Shown here piece after piece: positions 30,331-59,416 of a stretch of 64,000 bases of DNA. The stretch lies in assembly GCF_002251795.1 (NCBI RefSeq), contig NZ_NOXU01000032.1, positions 558,001-622,000 of the forward strand, read 5' to 3'. Position numbers and translations under genes: made by a program. This DNA comes from Niveispirillum lacus. GTDB lineage: Bacteria; Pseudomonadota; Alphaproteobacteria; Azospirillales; Azospirillaceae. Every line of letters begins with the position of its first letter. Within the stretch, counting starts at the first letter, position 1. The notes beneath the pieces were generated by a model, which did no database searches, was not told the origin of the DNA, and worked only from the letters and a program-made list of their open reading frames with translations.

Positions 30331-31671
30331 TTACACCCGCAGGGCCTTGGTCACATCATCCGCCACGAGGGCAATCCAGCGCACAATGTTCTCCGGCGCG
30401 GTGGCGGCGCGCATGTCCGGTGCCCCCAGGCTCTGGGCCTTGCGATACCATTTGGCGCGCACCGCATAGGGTTCACCCGTCAGGAACTGCAGCGCCCGCT
30501 GTGCAGTGGCGGACAGGACGGGCGGTTCCGATCCTTCGGGGGTCAACCGTACAGGGGCCGAGGCGGCCGGATGCAGCTTCTCCAACCAGGCACGGAAGGC
30601 AGCGGACGGGTTGCGGCAGGGTTCTTTCTGCCGCATGGCCCATTCAGCCCAGCTAAAGATGGCGGCCTGCATGTCCACGTCGGGATATTGGGCCATCAAT
30701 TCCTCAATCACCCCCAGCGATACACGCTGGATCAGGCCCAGCGTGCCCGCCGGGCCGCGCTCGCGGTCGGTGCGGCCATCTTCCAGATCGGGCGTGTCCT
30801 GATCGCGGCCATTGGTTGACGGGGCCGCCCGCCCCACCGGGGCCTTGGCAAATTCGGTGATGCGGGCCGTCGCCACCAACTCGCTGTTCGATTTCTTCTT
30901 CACATCGAACAGCAGTTTCTCCACCTTGCGGCCGCGCCCGTTGGAGCGGATTTCCTGATACGCGATCACCAGACCCGAAAGCTCGTTGATCTCTCCCACG
31001 GCGGGGTCAAGGACCCGACGCTGGAAATGGGCGTAATTGGGCATCTTGTCGGCACAGCCCAGGCTTTCACGGAGATCGTCCAGGCTCACTTCCCAGCGCG
31101 GTTCGCGCAGATTGACCCGCAGGCTGAGCAGTTCATACAGCGCCAGCGAATATTTGGAGGAGAACTGAGCACAGATGGCCAGATGGATGCGGGCCCAGGC
31201 GCCGGGCTTGGCCAGAAGCGGTCGCAGCTTGGGCGGAAATTCCCATTCGGCATAACCCGAACCGCGCGGCAGAGCCCGGAAGGAGAGCAGCGGCGATCCC
31301 CCCTCTTTCAATTGCTGGTCGGCCTCGCTCCAATAGGGGAAACGCACCAATGTCTGCATCAGCCGGTCGAAGGATTGGCGCAGACGCACATTGTTGCTTT
31401 CGGTATCATCACCGATGGCCCGGCGCAGATCGGCGGTGGAGGCCCGGAAGGGCGGCAGCGGCGCTTCCGGATCGGCCAGCTTGTCCCAGCTATAGGCCAG
31501 CAACACATTGAAAAGCTTACGATCCGCGAGTGTCAGGCCATTACCCGTCTCCATCACCTCGATCTGGGTGCGCGGTTTGGGCAGGGTTGGGTCGGTGGAC
31601 AGGTCAAGGACATTGCCTGTAATGCGCGGCCGGACCATGTCCGGTTTGACCGCATTCGCCTGCGCCGCCAT
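30331..31671 (-). CDS. Plasmid/chromid replication initiator protein (Rep_3-like)
   Basis: 446 residues from the ATG at 31671, preceded by GGGGGA at good spacing; the upstream extension lacks family similarity. Winged-helix initiator features: NGLTLADRKLFNVLLAYSWDKL, SSKYSLALYELLSLRVN, WEVSLDDLRESLG and FQRRVLDPAVGEINELSGL, which fit the RepA/RepB initiators of iteron plasmids. The C-terminal third (about 290-446) is a separate helical region. Twelve iterons lie just upstream, as expected for an initiator that binds its own origin and promoter. The family assignment comes from motif pattern only. Confidence 0.85.
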   Translation of the reverse strand: MAAQANAVKPDMVRPRITGNVLDLSTDPTLPKPRTQIEVMETGNGLTLADRKLFNVLLAYSWDKLADPEAPLPPFRASTADLRRAIGDDTESNNVRLRQSFDRLMQTLVRFPYWSEADQQLKEGGSPLLSFRALPRGSGYAEWEFPPKLRPLLAKPGAWARIHLAICAQFSSKYSLALYELLSLRVNLREPRWEVSLDDLRESLGCADKMPNYAHFQRRVLDPAVGEINELSGLVIAYQEIRSNGRGRKVEKLLFDVKKKSNSELVATARITEFAKAPVGRAAPSTNGRDQDTPDLEDGRTDRERGPAGTLGLIQRVSLGVIEELMAQYPDVDMQAAIFSWAEWAMRQKEPCRNPSAAFRAWLEKLHPAASAPVRLTPEGSEPPVLSATAQRALQFLTGEPYAVRAKWYRKAQSLGAPDMRAATAPENIVRWIALVADDVTKALRV

Positions 31672-32330
31672 TGATCCCCCCACGCGCACTGTCTCAGTGC
31701 CAAAGAGCCTGTGAGTCACGTCACTGTGACAGACCATCACCTGCAGGGCACAGGGATCAAGCAGGAATTATCACCCCCGTGCGAGATGGCACAGTGAGGA
31801 CTGGAAATGCCGATTCTGATCCGTGCAATCCGGCACAGAGAGGACGCCAAACCTGATAATGCCCGTGCAATCCGGCACAAGAACGGCCGAAACCGGAGAA
31901 TCGGTAGGATCGGGGGGCCGTGAACACTGGCACAGCAAGGGAATCGCCCCCGTGATATCCGGCACAGGAAGCCCGTAGCACGGCGCCAGGGGGCTGGCCG
32001 AGGTGCCAACCCCGTGCGATCTGTCACAGAAAAGCCGCGAAAAGCCGCACAAATCCTTGATTCTCAACCTTGCTTGAGGGTGGCCCCGTAAGATATGGCA
32101 CAGGATTGAGGGTGTGGGCGTGAGATATGGCCCTGGAAGCCGGACAGATTGGCACAACAAGCCGTCAGAACCGGCACAAGGACTCGTAAGCCATGGCACA
32201 GGAAGCCGTACCCGATGGCACAGGGTCGGGTAACAACACATTGTTATAAAAGGGATAAACGGGTCATGAACAATGAATCCTGAAAGGATAGAATCTAACG
32301 AACAGGGTGGTTGAGGGTAATTTGAGGCAA
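31672..32330. other. Probable replication origin (oriV)
   Basis: The region directly upstream of the initiator gene holds an odd dyad GTCACTGTGAC near the presumed promoter (31721-31731) and twelve iterons. An AT-richer stretch follows (about 32225-32330) with the inverted repeat AACAA-caca-TTGTT (32232-32245) and two copies of AGGGATAAAC, suited to strand opening. I found no perfect DnaA box TTATCCACA. Confidence 0.8.
31777..32223. repeat. Array of twelve 18-bp iterons
   Basis: Copies begin at 31777, 31821, 31863, 31918, 31950, 32012, 32086, 32118, 32140, 32162, 32184 and 32206, all in the same orientation. Working consensus: CCGTGNGATNTGGCACAG. The GGCACA half is most conserved; the copy at 32118 is degenerate (GGCCCT). 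The last five are spaced exactly 22 bp, two helical turns. The earlier copies are 32-74 bp apart. Confidence 0.88.
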
Positions 32331-32388
32331 GGGATAAACAACCAGGCTGGCATCGGTATTCCCCCACACTCCCCACAGGCAAGGCGGT

Positions 32389-48247: not shown

Positions 48248-48317
48248 CGGCCGGGCCGGCGTCGGACCTGTGTGCCCACGGCCCAGCCACAGCCGGTTGG
48301 CGACATTGTGCCGGATC

Positions 48318-49268
48318 TCACGGTTCCAACAGACCATCCAGCCGGCTTGCCATACGGGTCAGTGTGGCGCGTAACGCCTCCAGGCGGGCGCGTTCTTCGG
48401 GTTTCAGGCGGCCAGGCCCCTTCTCCGCGACAGCCTCAATTCCGGCAGACAGGCTTTCTTCCAGCTTGCCCAGGCCAGCGATGAATTTCTTTGCTGTGAC
48501 AGGTTTCACGCCCGGCGCACCTTTGCCCCCATCGGGGGGGCGCTGCAGGCGGGCCCGATATTCGCGGGCTTCGCGGGCTGTCAGTTCACCTTTCTTGACC
48601 TTGAGCCATAGGCTCAATTGGTCAACCTCCTCCATCCGGGCCAATTCCAGCAGCACAGCCTTCGGCACGTCATTGTGTGACGTCACACAGTCGCTGCGGA
48701 TTGTTGCATGCAGTTTCAGCAAGGTCAGCGTGGTGTTGACCTCGGTGCGTGACCGGCCCAGCAGATCTCCAACCGCTTCCTGATTATAATCATGGGTCTC
48801 GATCAGCCGACGAATACCCTCGGCCTCCTCCACGGGTGACAGATCCACCCGTTGCAAATTCTCAATCAGGGCAATCTGATCGGTATTGGCATCGGTGGGC
48901 AGGATATGCGCCATGATTCTGGTCAGGCCGGCCATGCCCGCTGCCCGCCAGCGACGCTCACCAGCCACCAGCATGAAGCGTTTGGGCTGGGTTGGATGCG
49001 CCTGTACCAGGATCGGTGATAATTGCCCGACTTCCCGCAGGGAGAAGGACAATGCCTGCAACTCCTCCTCATCGAAATGGCGGCGGGGTTGGTTGGGATT
49101 TGGCTCAACATCGGTGAGGCGTAACAACACCGTGTCGCGCAGACCTTCGGCCGTGCCAAATATCAGATCCGCGCCGGGTCGTTCCAGGCTTTCACCAATG
49201 GATTTCGCCACCATGGTCGGCTGGGGTGTCGGCTGCGGGCCTGCCGGTTTACGCCAGTTCTTAACCAT
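48318..49268 (-). CDS. parB: Chromosome/plasmid partition protein ParB
   Basis: 316 residues. ParB N-terminal nuclease-like domain (about 50-145) with VEPNPNQPRRHFDEEEL and the CTP-binding GERRWRAA, then IENLQRVDLSPVEEAEG and an HTH region (QEAVGDLLGRSRTEVNTTL) that reads parS. The C-terminal part is a dimer region rich in charged residues. The start overlaps the parA stop by eight bases, so parA-parB is one operon. One candidate parS palindrome lies inside this gene. Confidence 0.94.
   Translation of the reverse strand: MVKNWRKPAGPQPTPQPTMVAKSIGESLERPGADLIFGTAEGLRDTVLLRLTDVEPNPNQPRRHFDEEELQALSFSLREVGQLSPILVQAHPTQPKRFMLVAGERRWRAAGMAGLTRIMAHILPTDANTDQIALIENLQRVDLSPVEEAEGIRRLIETHDYNQEAVGDLLGRSRTEVNTTLTLLKLHATIRSDCVTSHNDVPKAVLLELARMEEVDQLSLWLKVKKGELTAREAREYRARLQRPPDGGKGAPGVKPVTAKKFIAGLGKLEESLSAGIEAVAEKGPGRLKPEERARLEALRATLTRMASRLDGLLEP
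48674..48689. promoter_or_regulatory. Candidate parS site 1, inside parB
   Basis: Perfect 16-bp palindrome TGTGTGACGTCACACA within the parB coding sequence. Identical to the core of the two sites upstream of parA. Confidence 0.65.
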
Positions 49269-50211
49269 TGACGATCTCCTGTGCCAGGGTGCGGTACACC
49301 CCGATCGGGTGGCTCTTGGGCAGCATTTTCAGCGGCACGGCGCCGGCATAGGTGGCTTGGTCGATCTCCGTGGATCGCGGCACCGGTGCAAAGATGCGCG
49401 CCTTGTCGCCCAGGCTTTCCTGCAGGTCCGACAGCACCTGCTGCTCAACGGCGAAGTTGCGGTTGAACATGGTGGGCAGTACACCCAACACCTTCAGGCT
49501 GGGATTCTGCCGCCGCTGAATCTTTGACACGGTATCAAAGATCAGCGGGATGCCGCGGACATCATATCGGCTGGCCTTTGTCGGGATCAGCAGGTAATCG
49601 GCGGCAATCAGGGCCGTGACAGTAATCAACGCCAGTTCGGGCGGGCAGTCGATAACGATAAAGTCGTAATCGCGCAAAATCTCTGACAGTTTTTCCCGCA
49701 GCACATAGCGCCCATCGTCGGGGTCCAGCAGGATTTTGATCTGCGCCTCTGCCAGGGCGATCGTACAGGGCAGCAGATCGTACCCGTCACATTTGACGAT
49801 GGCGTCATGAATGCCGGTCTGCCCGAACAGCACATCCTCCAGACCGCCCTTTCGATCCTGCACTTCCAGCGGATCAATGCCCGATCCTTCGGTGGCCGTT
49901 GCCTGTTGGTCGGCATCGACGATCAACACCTTTTTGCCCAGTTCGCCCAGCGCATAGCCCAGATTCAGGGTCGTGGTGGTCTTGCCGACGCCACCCTTCT
50001 GGTTGGCCACTGCGATGATGGTGGCCGTCCGCTGACTGGCGGCGGCCAGAAACTCCGCCACCCGAACCGGCAGGCGTTCGGCACCGGATTCCCAGCGGCT
50101 GATGGTGGCATTATCATATTTACGGCCCAGCTTGGCATTCACCCAGGTCGCAAAGGCGGCCTGGCTTTCGCCGCGGCTTTCACGGAAATGGCGCAGTTCA
50201 TCGGGCGTCAT
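49261..50211 (-). CDS. parA: Partition ATPase ParA with N-terminal DNA-binding domain
   Basis: 316 residues. The first 60 form an XRE-like helix-turn-helix (TPDELRHFRESRGESQAAFATW ... ISRWESGAERLPVRV). The ParA ATPase follows with deviant Walker A KGGVGKTTTTLN (about residue 75), Walker A' DADQQATAT and Walker B VIDCPPELAL. ParA proteins with an N-terminal DNA-binding domain repress their own operon as well as moving ParB-bound DNA. The two palindromes upstream (50333 and 50397) are possible targets. Heads the parAB operon. Confidence 0.94.
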   Translation of the reverse strand: MTPDELRHFRESRGESQAAFATWVNAKLGRKYDNATISRWESGAERLPVRVAEFLAAASQRTATIIAVANQKGGVGKTTTTLNLGYALGELGKKVLIVDADQQATATEGSGIDPLEVQDRKGGLEDVLFGQTGIHDAIVKCDGYDLLPCTIALAEAQIKILLDPDDGRYVLREKLSEILRDYDFIVIDCPPELALITVTALIAADYLLIPTKASRYDVRGIPLIFDTVSKIQRRQNPSLKVLGVLPTMFNRNFAVEQQVLSDLQESLGDKARIFAPVPRSTEIDQATYAGAVPLKMLPKSHPIGVYRTLAQEIVNG

Positions 50212-50332
50212 GGCACCGGTCCATGGGTGGGGATTTGAGGCTTTGAGAATTGGCTCAAATCACAGGCGCCGTCAATGGAGAACAGGGGTCTGGTGCGGAG
50301 GCCTGTCACTGTGCCGCAATGCACGGGTGCTG

Positions 50333-50348: not shown

Positions 50349-50396
50349 GAAGGGTTTGGTGTCCTTGCTGTGCCAAACCGCACGGGTGGCGTTGGG

Positions 50397-58000: not shown

Positions 58001-59416
58001 CTACGGCCCGCCCACCCGCCGTAACCGTATCTCCGTCTCATCCAGGCCGGTCAGGACCAGGGTGCCGTCAGGTTCCACGGTATGAGTCTGCACGCTGCGC
58101 AGGGCCGACAGGAAGGCCTGTTCGCGCAGCATCATCTCTCGCGGGCAGGCCATCATGGTGCTGCCGCCGCTGCGGCCGGCGATAGTCAAGCCATTGGCAT
58201 CAGCGCGGTAGCGGGCCATGAAACGGTTGCAGCCGGCGTTACCGCTGATCTCTCCCTGGCTGGTGAAGCGCAGGGAAAGGCCGGCATCGGTGACCGGCTC
58301 GCCATTCAGCAGCGTCACCGACCATTGCTCCGCCTGGGCCAGGAAGGCTGCCGCTGATCCGCCACAGCCGCTCAACACCTGTTCGCCCATCTCGACCGTT
58401 ACGCGGTCTGGAAATGGCACACTGGTGCGCGGTTCCAGGCACAGGCCGGGATTGATGGTCACCCTCAATTCCCCGGTACTCAGCCGCGCAACATAACGAT
58501 GGCCATCGGCCAGCAATTGCCGCTCGGGCACGGGGATCTGCACGATCTGGGACGTTCCTGTGACAGATCTCACGAGTTCCAGACGCTCCGGCCCGATACG
58601 CAAGGTCCAGTCCGGGCTGCGCCCGCTCGCCTCATACTGGCCGGGTCTGGGGGCCGGGTCGTCAGGGAATTCCGCCTGAGCGCATGACAGCCCGGCCTCG
58701 CCGGTGATGGTCAGCCGCGCATTGCGCCCTTTGGTCCAGAAAAGGATCTCCCGCCCGTCCGGCAAGCCGGTGCCATACCGCGCCCCACTGGCCGACAATA
58801 GGCGTTCCAGCCGGTGGGTGACCCCGTCAAGGGTCAGGTCCAGGCCGTCATCACGGGCCTGGACCAGCACCTGGCGATCCCCGCATTGGAATGGGATGCC
58901 GGGCAGGGTGGGGGCAGGACTGTCCATGGCGGCGGCGGGGGCCGGTGCCGCGGCGCGGGTCAGCCACAGCATGCCCAAATCATGCAGCGGCTGATCCGGA
59001 TTGATGACATGGGCACTCTGTTTGGACCAGAGCGGCTGGCCCGTCCGGTCCTGGATGATGGCGCGCAGGGCATAACGCTCCCCCGCCTTCAGTTTGGCCT
59101 GGGCGGCGGTCAGGCGGAAACTCAACGGCACCTGCTGGCCCGCCAGATCGACGCTCTGTCGCGCCAGCGCAGGGCCTGCCGGATCGCCGCCGCTGGATTG
59201 CTCGGCCAGGGTGACCAGCAAGGTGGCGCCCGGCGGCAGGGCGATCCGTTCCCGATAGCTCAATTCACCGATGATGGTGACCAGGGCACGTGCCGTAGAA
59301 GGGTTGGCGCCGGCACTGCCGGTCTGCGGCGACGGGTCGGCTGCCAGACCTGGCCCCGCCAGCAGCAGCGCCAGCCCCGCTATCAGCCATGCCCTTCCCC
59401 AACCCGTTCTGTGCAT
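58001..59416 (-). CDS. Four-domain envelope protein (YbaY-MliC-COG3650-META type)
   Basis: 471 residues from the ATG at 59416 (MHRTGWGRAWLIAGLALLLAGPGLA, a signal peptide). Domains in order: a YbaY/YscW-like beta domain (about 40-145, GELSYRERIALPPGATLLVTL); an MliC-like lysozyme-inhibitor domain (about 165-235, IPFQCGDRQV ... LLSASGARYGTGLPDGREILFWTKG); a COG3650-like domain (about 245-350, YEASGRSPDWTLRIGPE ... LSGCGG); and a META/HslJ domain (about 362-468, WSVTLLNGEPV, GNAGCNRFMARY, STMMACPREMMLREQ). All four are stress-related envelope families usually found apart or in pairs. No lipobox Cys, so probably soluble periplasmic. Confidence 0.82.
   Translation of the reverse strand: MHRTGWGRAWLIAGLALLLAGPGLAADPSPQTGSAGANPSTARALVTIIGELSYRERIALPPGATLLVTLAEQSSGGDPAGPALARQSVDLAGQQVPLSFRLTAAQAKLKAGERYALRAIIQDRTGQPLWSKQSAHVINPDQPLHDLGMLWLTRAAAPAPAAAMDSPAPTLPGIPFQCGDRQVLVQARDDGLDLTLDGVTHRLERLLSASGARYGTGLPDGREILFWTKGRNARLTITGEAGLSCAQAEFPDDPAPRPGQYEASGRSPDWTLRIGPERLELVRSVTGTSQIVQIPVPERQLLADGHRYVARLSTGELRVTINPGLCLEPRTSVPFPDRVTVEMGEQVLSGCGGSAAAFLAQAEQWSVTLLNGEPVTDAGLSLRFTSQGEISGNAGCNRFMARYRADANGLTIAGRSGGSTMMACPREMMLREQAFLSALRSVQTHTVEPDGTLVLTGLDETEIRLRRVGGP

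Follow-up and report, generated by a model that had tools for sequence, protein, structure and literature searches.

A probable iteron origin with clustered GANTC sites on a large secondary replicon of Niveispirillum lacus

Main finding

This analysis identified an array of twelve iterons upstream of a Rep_3-type initiator gene in Niveispirillum lacus, which is probably where replication of a large secondary chromosome begins in the genus Niveispirillum. The best reading is an iteron origin of a type already known, here on an alphaproteobacterial chromid. New are the cluster of GANTC sites at the origin, the stray iterons beside a putative parS, and an inversion that separates the origin from parAB. 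No description of this combination on a large alphaproteobacterial replicon was found in the literature searched.

According to the available part of a 2018 review (PMC6090056), large alphaproteobacterial replicons are usually of the repABC type, with iteron origins there found only on small plasmids, and SeqA-dependent iteron chromids are suggested not to be controllable tightly enough in the Alphaproteobacteria. In its layout, the present case runs counter to that review, since an iteron origin is here conserved over two genera and sits on a replicon of 1.0 Mb. Its GANTC cluster is a testable answer to the question of how such an origin could be timed. Any claim of being first is weakened by the Paracoccus chromids with Rep_3-type initiators, as described in the available part of PMC6209633.

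Iteron array and initiator gene

The window (the whole 64,000-nucleotide stretch of DNA that was analysed) contains the following features at the proposed origin.

30331..31671, minus strand, ATG at 31671: Rep_3-type initiator gene (rep), 446 aa, assigned by Pfam
31720..31730, no strand: inverted repeat GTCACTGTGAC, candidate rep operator, between the array and the rep ATG
31777..32103, plus strand: seven gene-proximal iterons, spacings 44, 42, 55, 32, 62, 74
32118..32223, plus strand: five distal iterons in steps of exactly 22 bp, a step kept in 7/7 loci
32200..32349, no strand: candidate unwinding element, an AT-rich stretch of 44 % GC that includes conserved GANTC and TTGAGG repeats
31713..32295, no strand: eight GANTC sites (the CcrM cell-cycle methylation motif), at 31713, 31812, 31898, 31941, 32059, 32181, 32275 and 32291

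The twelve 18-bp iterons all point in the same direction and occupy 31777-32223, 105 bp upstream of the minus-strand rep. On the plus strand they start at 31777, 31821, 31863, 31918, 31950, 32012, 32086, 32118, 32140, 32162, 32184 and 32206, giving spacings of 44, 42, 55, 32, 62, 74, 32, 22, 22, 22 and 22. The consensus proposed in a sequence-only reading of this DNA, allowing up to three mismatches, recovers 8 of the 12 together with five other places in the window (mean 1.03 and maximum 4 in 100 shuffles). A weight matrix made from the twelve scores every iteron at 15.6 bits or more; with each left out in turn, the iteron at 32118 drops to 9.9 bits and that at 32140 to 7.4 bits. Being weak alone, these two are counted as iterons because of their register. 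At 18 bits or above the matrix has 14 matches in the window, ten in the array and four elsewhere. Markov-1 sequence would be expected to give 0.06, and other real DNA (218,753 bp) has none at this threshold and three at 16 bits.

The initiator passes both Pfam cut-offs (Rep3_N, 53.8 bits against 22.4; Rep3_C, 59.7 bits against 21.1) and has one weak match among solved structures, to the pi protein (2nra_C, E 0.00093). At a threshold of E <= 1e-60, orthologues are present in 15 of 119 genomes, comprising 8 of the 11 from the same genus and seven from one other genus. Relatives of 86-97 % identity come from Niveispirillum and from records filed as Azospirillum or as unclassified alphaproteobacterium. 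Other Rep_3-like genes, 24-35 % identical, are found on N. lacus contigs C20, C12 and C10, therefore several iteron-type replicons may coexist. With up to one mismatch of TTATNCACA, no DnaA box was found in the window's origin; the box is absent in five of the six origins scanned and present in one.

The matrix, the Pfam matches and the conservation described below confirm the sequence-only reading in its description of twelve same-direction iterons directly upstream of a Rep_3-like gene, as they do for the five farthest iterons being exactly 22 bp apart and bordering AT-rich DNA, the GC content of 32200-32349 being 44 % as compared with 54-70 % in the surroundings. Its proposal that the nearer block serves autoregulation is less likely than repression through the inverted repeat GTCACNGTGAC, which is found at this place, separating the array from the start codon of rep, in 7/7 Niveispirillum loci and is, based on this position, a candidate rep operator. 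The GANTC cluster, the iterons by parA and the inversion are additions to that reading.

Conservation of the array

When each slot may shift by up to 8 bp from its aligned position and the best match there is used, all 12 slots are occupied in 7/7 Niveispirillum loci, every one of which has 22 bp for each of its last four intervals. Slot 11 is weak in four of the seven (7 of 11 key bases). The eighth species (genome G003) is left out of this count, its contig ending 72 bp upstream of rep. The nearer intervals across the seven loci are 43-44, 42-43, 54-61 or 94, 31-33, 62-64 or 41-44, 70-75, and 31-32 bp. The nearer iterons had been called irregular, but their spacings are near-fixed across the species, and the seven nearer intervals in the window fit a period of 10.5-10.7 bp (p 0.0006-0.0022; p 0.003 with the period left free). 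Pooling 21 spacings gives p <= 0.0001 at 10.5-10.8 bp, but as these come from related species the test is not an independent one.

In a sister genus, the Rep is 53-55 % identical to that of the window and the iteron is quite different in sequence, near TGGCGANAAAACNCATA. About 12 repeats are present in 4/4 loci, a count that leaves out three weak extra matches (10 of 15 scored positions) in two of the four. Their spacings in one locus are 43, 42, 81, 35, 103, 35, 70, 30, 22, 22 and 22, and those in the others are nearly identical. The terminal 22-bp block adjoins an AT-rich stretch in all four loci. The exact steps in 7/7 Niveispirillum loci, and the four iterons 22 bp apart beside the AT-rich stretch in 4/4 sister-genus loci, both support the idea of an iteron origin whose strict 22-bp block is on the AT-rich side. 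Helical phasing, seen in the window (p 0.003), is absent from the sister genus; it was rejected as a general rule and would, judging from these arrays, be at most a Niveispirillum feature. Since the 22-bp block is kept in both genera and the phasing in one, the terminal 22-bp block is the stable feature.

The replicon

The window's contig is 681,753 bp long, within a 4.97-Mb genome. Its homologue in Niveispirillum cyanobacteriorum (genome G006) is a circular replicon of 1,003,851 bp with the array at 141.1-141.6 kb. The GC-skew minimum of this circle lies at 167,066 (detrended) or 170,615 (plain), 25-29 kb from the array; a random point would fall within 29 kb of the minimum with a chance of about 6 %. 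At 17 bits or above, nine of the 13 matrix matches on the whole 1,003,851-bp replicon are inside the array.

The replicon is large and is kept across much of the genus, based on the 681,753-bp contig, the 1,003,851-bp circle, and the presence of rep in 8/11 congeners; this last figure also means that the replicon is not in the whole genus. The 1.0-Mb replicon carries a tRNA-Leu(UAA) that is the sole one among the ten tRNA genes read at nine of 51 matches, these nine being those long enough for Leu, Ser or Tyr. Its N. lacus counterpart is on another contig, C31. A 16S search gave one match in N. lacus and none scored in N. cyanobacteriorum, and is uninformative. The replicon is chromid-like, which falls short of proof that it is a chromid.

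The 1.0-Mb N. cyanobacteriorum replicon also contains an RPA-family initiator gene (C3:499315-500004), perhaps from a fused plasmid; the N. lacus genome has no RPA-family match. Searches for RP-C (RepC) returned no match in five genomes and no clear positive among 14 control genomes.

Partition locus and inversion

The partition genes and the sites around them are as follows.

48306..48323, minus strand: iteron at the parB 3′ end, 24.4 bits, also in genomes G003 and G007 (3/8 species)
48318..49268, minus strand: parB (Pfam ParB_N 77.4 bits, HTH_ParB 48.7 bits)
48674..48689 (C22:606674), no strand: palindrome TGTGTGACGTCACACA inside parB, putative parS copy 3
49261..50211, minus strand: parA with an N-terminal helix-turn-helix stretch (AAA_31 174.6 bits; HTH_31 25.4 bits, just under the cut-off of 27)
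50242..50259, no strand: inverted repeat TTTGAGAATTGGCTCAAA, candidate parA operator, TTGAG(N8)CTCAA in 8/8 species
50309..50326, minus strand: weak iteron upstream of parA, 14.9 bits
50333..50348, no strand: palindrome TGTGTGACGTCACACA, putative parS copy 1
50368..50385, minus strand: iteron upstream of parA, 21.2 bits
50399..50414, no strand: palindrome TGTGTGACGTCACACA, putative parS copy 2

Within one mismatch, the palindrome occurs three to four times per genome in 8/8 genomes that have rep and in 0/3 congeners that lack it, and a backward control of the palindrome gave no matches. All copies are on the rep contig in seven of the eight genomes; in G003 they are on the par contig and one other. 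As expected of a ParABS system, there are few such short palindromes and they are confined to the replicon near parAB, suggesting that the 16-bp palindrome is probably parS. A fourth parS-like palindrome with one mismatch lies outside the window at C22:282174-282189, some 326 kb from parAB, with counterparts on the same replicon in N. cyanobacteriorum and genome G010 and on a small contig in G003.

Upstream of parA, at least one iteron of at least 19.8 bits is found 3-13 bp from the 16-bp palindrome in 8/8 species (gaps worked out by hand from coordinates; the palindrome has one mismatch in two species). These iterons number one to four per species and their strand is variable.

Two further matches were seen near this locus. 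An iteron-like site inside parB (48494-48511, minus strand, 18.6 bits) has similar sites in the parB of N. cyanobacteriorum, G007 and G010. A strong iteron of 22.0 bits is inside a META-domain gene (58558-58575, minus strand); the site scores 22.8 bits in N. cyanobacteriorum and G010 and 16.6 bits in G007, and three other species gave none of this type in the 15 kb beyond parB. Titration of Rep is one possible role; the site could also be a chance match kept by coding.

Six species have rep and parB facing each other across a gap of 69-310 bp. In N. lacus, rep and the array are about 16 kb from parB, with inversion breakpoints at about 30.31 and 48.25 kb. The sister species G003, an independent assembly, has the same junctions on both sides. 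As read from gene order and these junctions, an inversion has separated the origin and rep from parAB in both species.

GANTC sites at the origin

The 700 bp upstream of rep contain eight GANTC sites in the window and 7-11 across the seven Niveispirillum origins; the four sister-genus origins (792-823 bp) have 7-8. At the local rate 0.5-1.1 would be present, so these 11/11 loci hold 6-17 times as many. Shuffling of the origins leaves 2.2-3.0 sites, an excess of 2.4-4.7 times (p 0.000-0.024 per locus, the loci being related). In 719 kb, 16 of the 17 600-bp windows with at least five sites (overlaps counted) are the 11 origins. The densest 600-bp window on the whole 1,003,851-bp replicon is the origin, with nine sites, followed by an AT-rich gene with seven. 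Two sites are kept in 7/7 Niveispirillum loci, one within the 22-bp block (32181) and one within the AT-rich stretch (32291), and six sites are kept in 4/4 sister-genus loci. Seven of the eight sites in the window are outside the iterons.

Control 5-mers are raised in places as well, usually less than GANTC. This is seen for GTNAC (4-6 against 1.6-2.6 in Niveispirillum origins), CTNAG (up to 3 against 0.4) and ACNGT, and for TCNGA in the sister genus; the control TGNCA is part of the iteron.

A CcrM-like methylase match with a RAMA domain is found once per genome in the three genomes tested; among 14 control genomes, the RAMA domain is found in Caulobacter only. Both sequence marks of a CcrM-controlled origin, a GANTC excess and a CcrM-type methylase, are therefore present, the methylase being known by its RAMA domain alone. 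The origin is perhaps timed by CcrM methylation, and its GANTC content hints at, without being proof of, a way in which a second chromosome could be timed. In papers naming both GANTC and iteron, GANTC sites at an iteron origin are not described in the parts available.

For comparison, ten other Rep_3 loci were picked from 40 listed of 1,196 records. Five of the nine alphaproteobacterial loci have 5-7 sites (shuffle p 0.020-0.224) and four have 1-3, these being from Skermanella, Acetobacter, Jannaschia, and one member of the Paracoccaceae; the single gammaproteobacterial locus has two. With such mixed counts, a GANTC cluster was rejected as a rule for all Rep_3 origins.

Alternative explanations

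That the array is not a working origin, and that the replicon is replicated by another initiator, is very unlikely. The RPA-family gene at 499 kb in the N. cyanobacteriorum homologue and the 25-29 kb between the array and the skew minimum could be taken this way, but that gene is itself about 330 kb from the minimum and the N. lacus genome has neither an RPA-family nor an RP-C match, the RP-C panel being one with no clear positive. There is more to be said for the GANTC cluster being a by-product of non-coding, less GC-rich DNA, the genes avoiding GANTC, with no role for CcrM. Shuffled origins do keep well over the local rate, the excess extends to other palindromic 5-mers, seven sites per 600 bp are reached within an AT-rich gene of the homologous replicon, and four other alphaproteobacterial Rep_3 loci have few sites. 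Against this, the observed counts exceed the shuffles at all 11 loci, nearly all of the site-rich windows are these origins, sites are invariant within each genus, and all but one of the window's sites are outside the iterons. A by-product is the less probable explanation, though a fair possibility.

Two alternatives concern what the iterons do. Extra iterons in RK2, P1 and similar plasmids pair (handcuff) origins for control of copy number, and from its layout the gene-proximal block here is possibly of this kind. The seven nearer iterons being purely a copy-number block is in keeping with two sub-arrays of different spacing in 7/7 loci, but near-fixed, phased spacings suggest one shared nucleoprotein structure; this is not decisive, and the purely copy-number role is considered less probable than not. 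The iterons beside parA may instead be sites at which Rep operates transcription, of parA or of the divergent aminotransferase gene, or may merely titrate Rep. They are in the promoter-sized gap between these two genes, and their copy number and even their strand vary between species, as this would allow. On the other hand, their closeness to the putative parS palindrome is kept in 8/8 species and they remained with parA after the inversion removed the origin, leaving a transcriptional or titrating role a serious contender that is somewhat less than evenly placed.

Proposed mechanism

The preferred explanation, in which the array is the origin of a large secondary replicon and Rep, GANTC and parS act in the steps given here, is likely as a whole. 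Sequence, conservation and co-occurrence are the observations, from which binding, opening, repression and methylation effects are inferred. The rep gene points away from the array, and Rep monomers most likely occupy the twelve iterons, of which the five spaced 22 bp apart beside the AT-rich stretch would be the strand-opening side. The gene-proximal iterons, with their conserved and roughly helical spacings, would extend the complex and probably set the firing frequency. Dimers of Rep probably repress rep at the inverted repeat at 31720-31730. Given the GANTC sites amid the iterons and inside the AT-rich stretch, either firing or rep transcription probably depends on CcrM methylation, such that a freshly copied, half-methylated origin would wait until late in the cell cycle. 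Likewise, initiator level is probably coupled to partition through the Rep sites that lie among the putative parS copies upstream of parA.

A more specific form, an alphaproteobacterial iteron chromid with a Rep_3 origin licensed by CcrM at GANTC and with its initiator also bound between parS sites, is put forward tentatively, its chances being a little below even. If true, replication-segregation coupling persists despite the inversion that separated origin and centromere. Such licensing is likened to that of Vibrio chromosome II, by Dam there, without any SeqA, and by CcrM here.

A crtS-like initiator site on the main chromosome was also sought, and no good candidate is among the matches listed. 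One site shared by N. cyanobacteriorum and G010 (one mismatch to the 17-mer) was rejected as coding sequence in which the species are 92.6 % identical, and a look-alike in the N. lacus genome (contig C29) sits in unrelated DNA.

Comparison with known systems

Direct repeats with a period of about 20-22 bp beside an AT-rich stretch, an operator inverted repeat, and copy-number iterons are known from plasmids F, P1, RK2 and R6K. The Niveispirillum origin differs from these in replicon size, the GANTC cluster, the seven conserved irregular slots, and the iterons beside parS.

The available parts of two papers describe V. cholerae ori2/RctB as an iteron origin on a chromid of about 1 Mb with dense origin methylation sites (PMC6090056), and report extra initiator sites near the centromere, with ParB2 spreading from parS into an initiator site (PMC3688505). 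As far as these accounts go, the two origins are alike in being iteron-based, in their density of methylation sites, and in extra initiator sites by the centromere; by analogy, ParB could spread into a Rep site here. RctB is unrelated to other initiators as far as homology can be detected, according to the available part of PMC6090056, whereas the Niveispirillum initiator is of the Rep_3 type. The Dam GATC sites are within the RctB 12-mers, unlike the GANTC sites, which are mostly between the iterons, and counterparts of the V. cholerae 39-mers and chromosomal crtS were not found in Niveispirillum, for crtS among the matches listed.

RepABC secondary origins have a GANTC excess, and CcrM affects the timing of ori2 (chromosome 2) in Agrobacterium, as given in the available part of PMC11514494. 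To that extent, RepABC replicons such as Agrobacterium chromosome 2 share with this one GANTC above expectation at an alphaproteobacterial secondary origin. They differ in that RP-C is unmatched in five genomes, and in that iterons and Rep_3 are present here with the origin outside the initiator gene.

Relatives of Rep of 28-29 % identity are found on Paracoccus Rep_3 (RepB-type) replicons of 0.46-0.65 Mb, such as pYEE1, which is called a chromid in silico in the available part of PMC6209633; iterons are not discussed in that part. Besides the low identity, these replicons differ in having a divergent parA directly upstream of rep. GANTC is raised at the origins of P. denitrificans plasmid 1, P. 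methylovorus p1, and Paracoccus sp. TOH p3 (shuffle p 0.04-0.08), and less clearly at that of pYEE1 (shuffle p 0.22).
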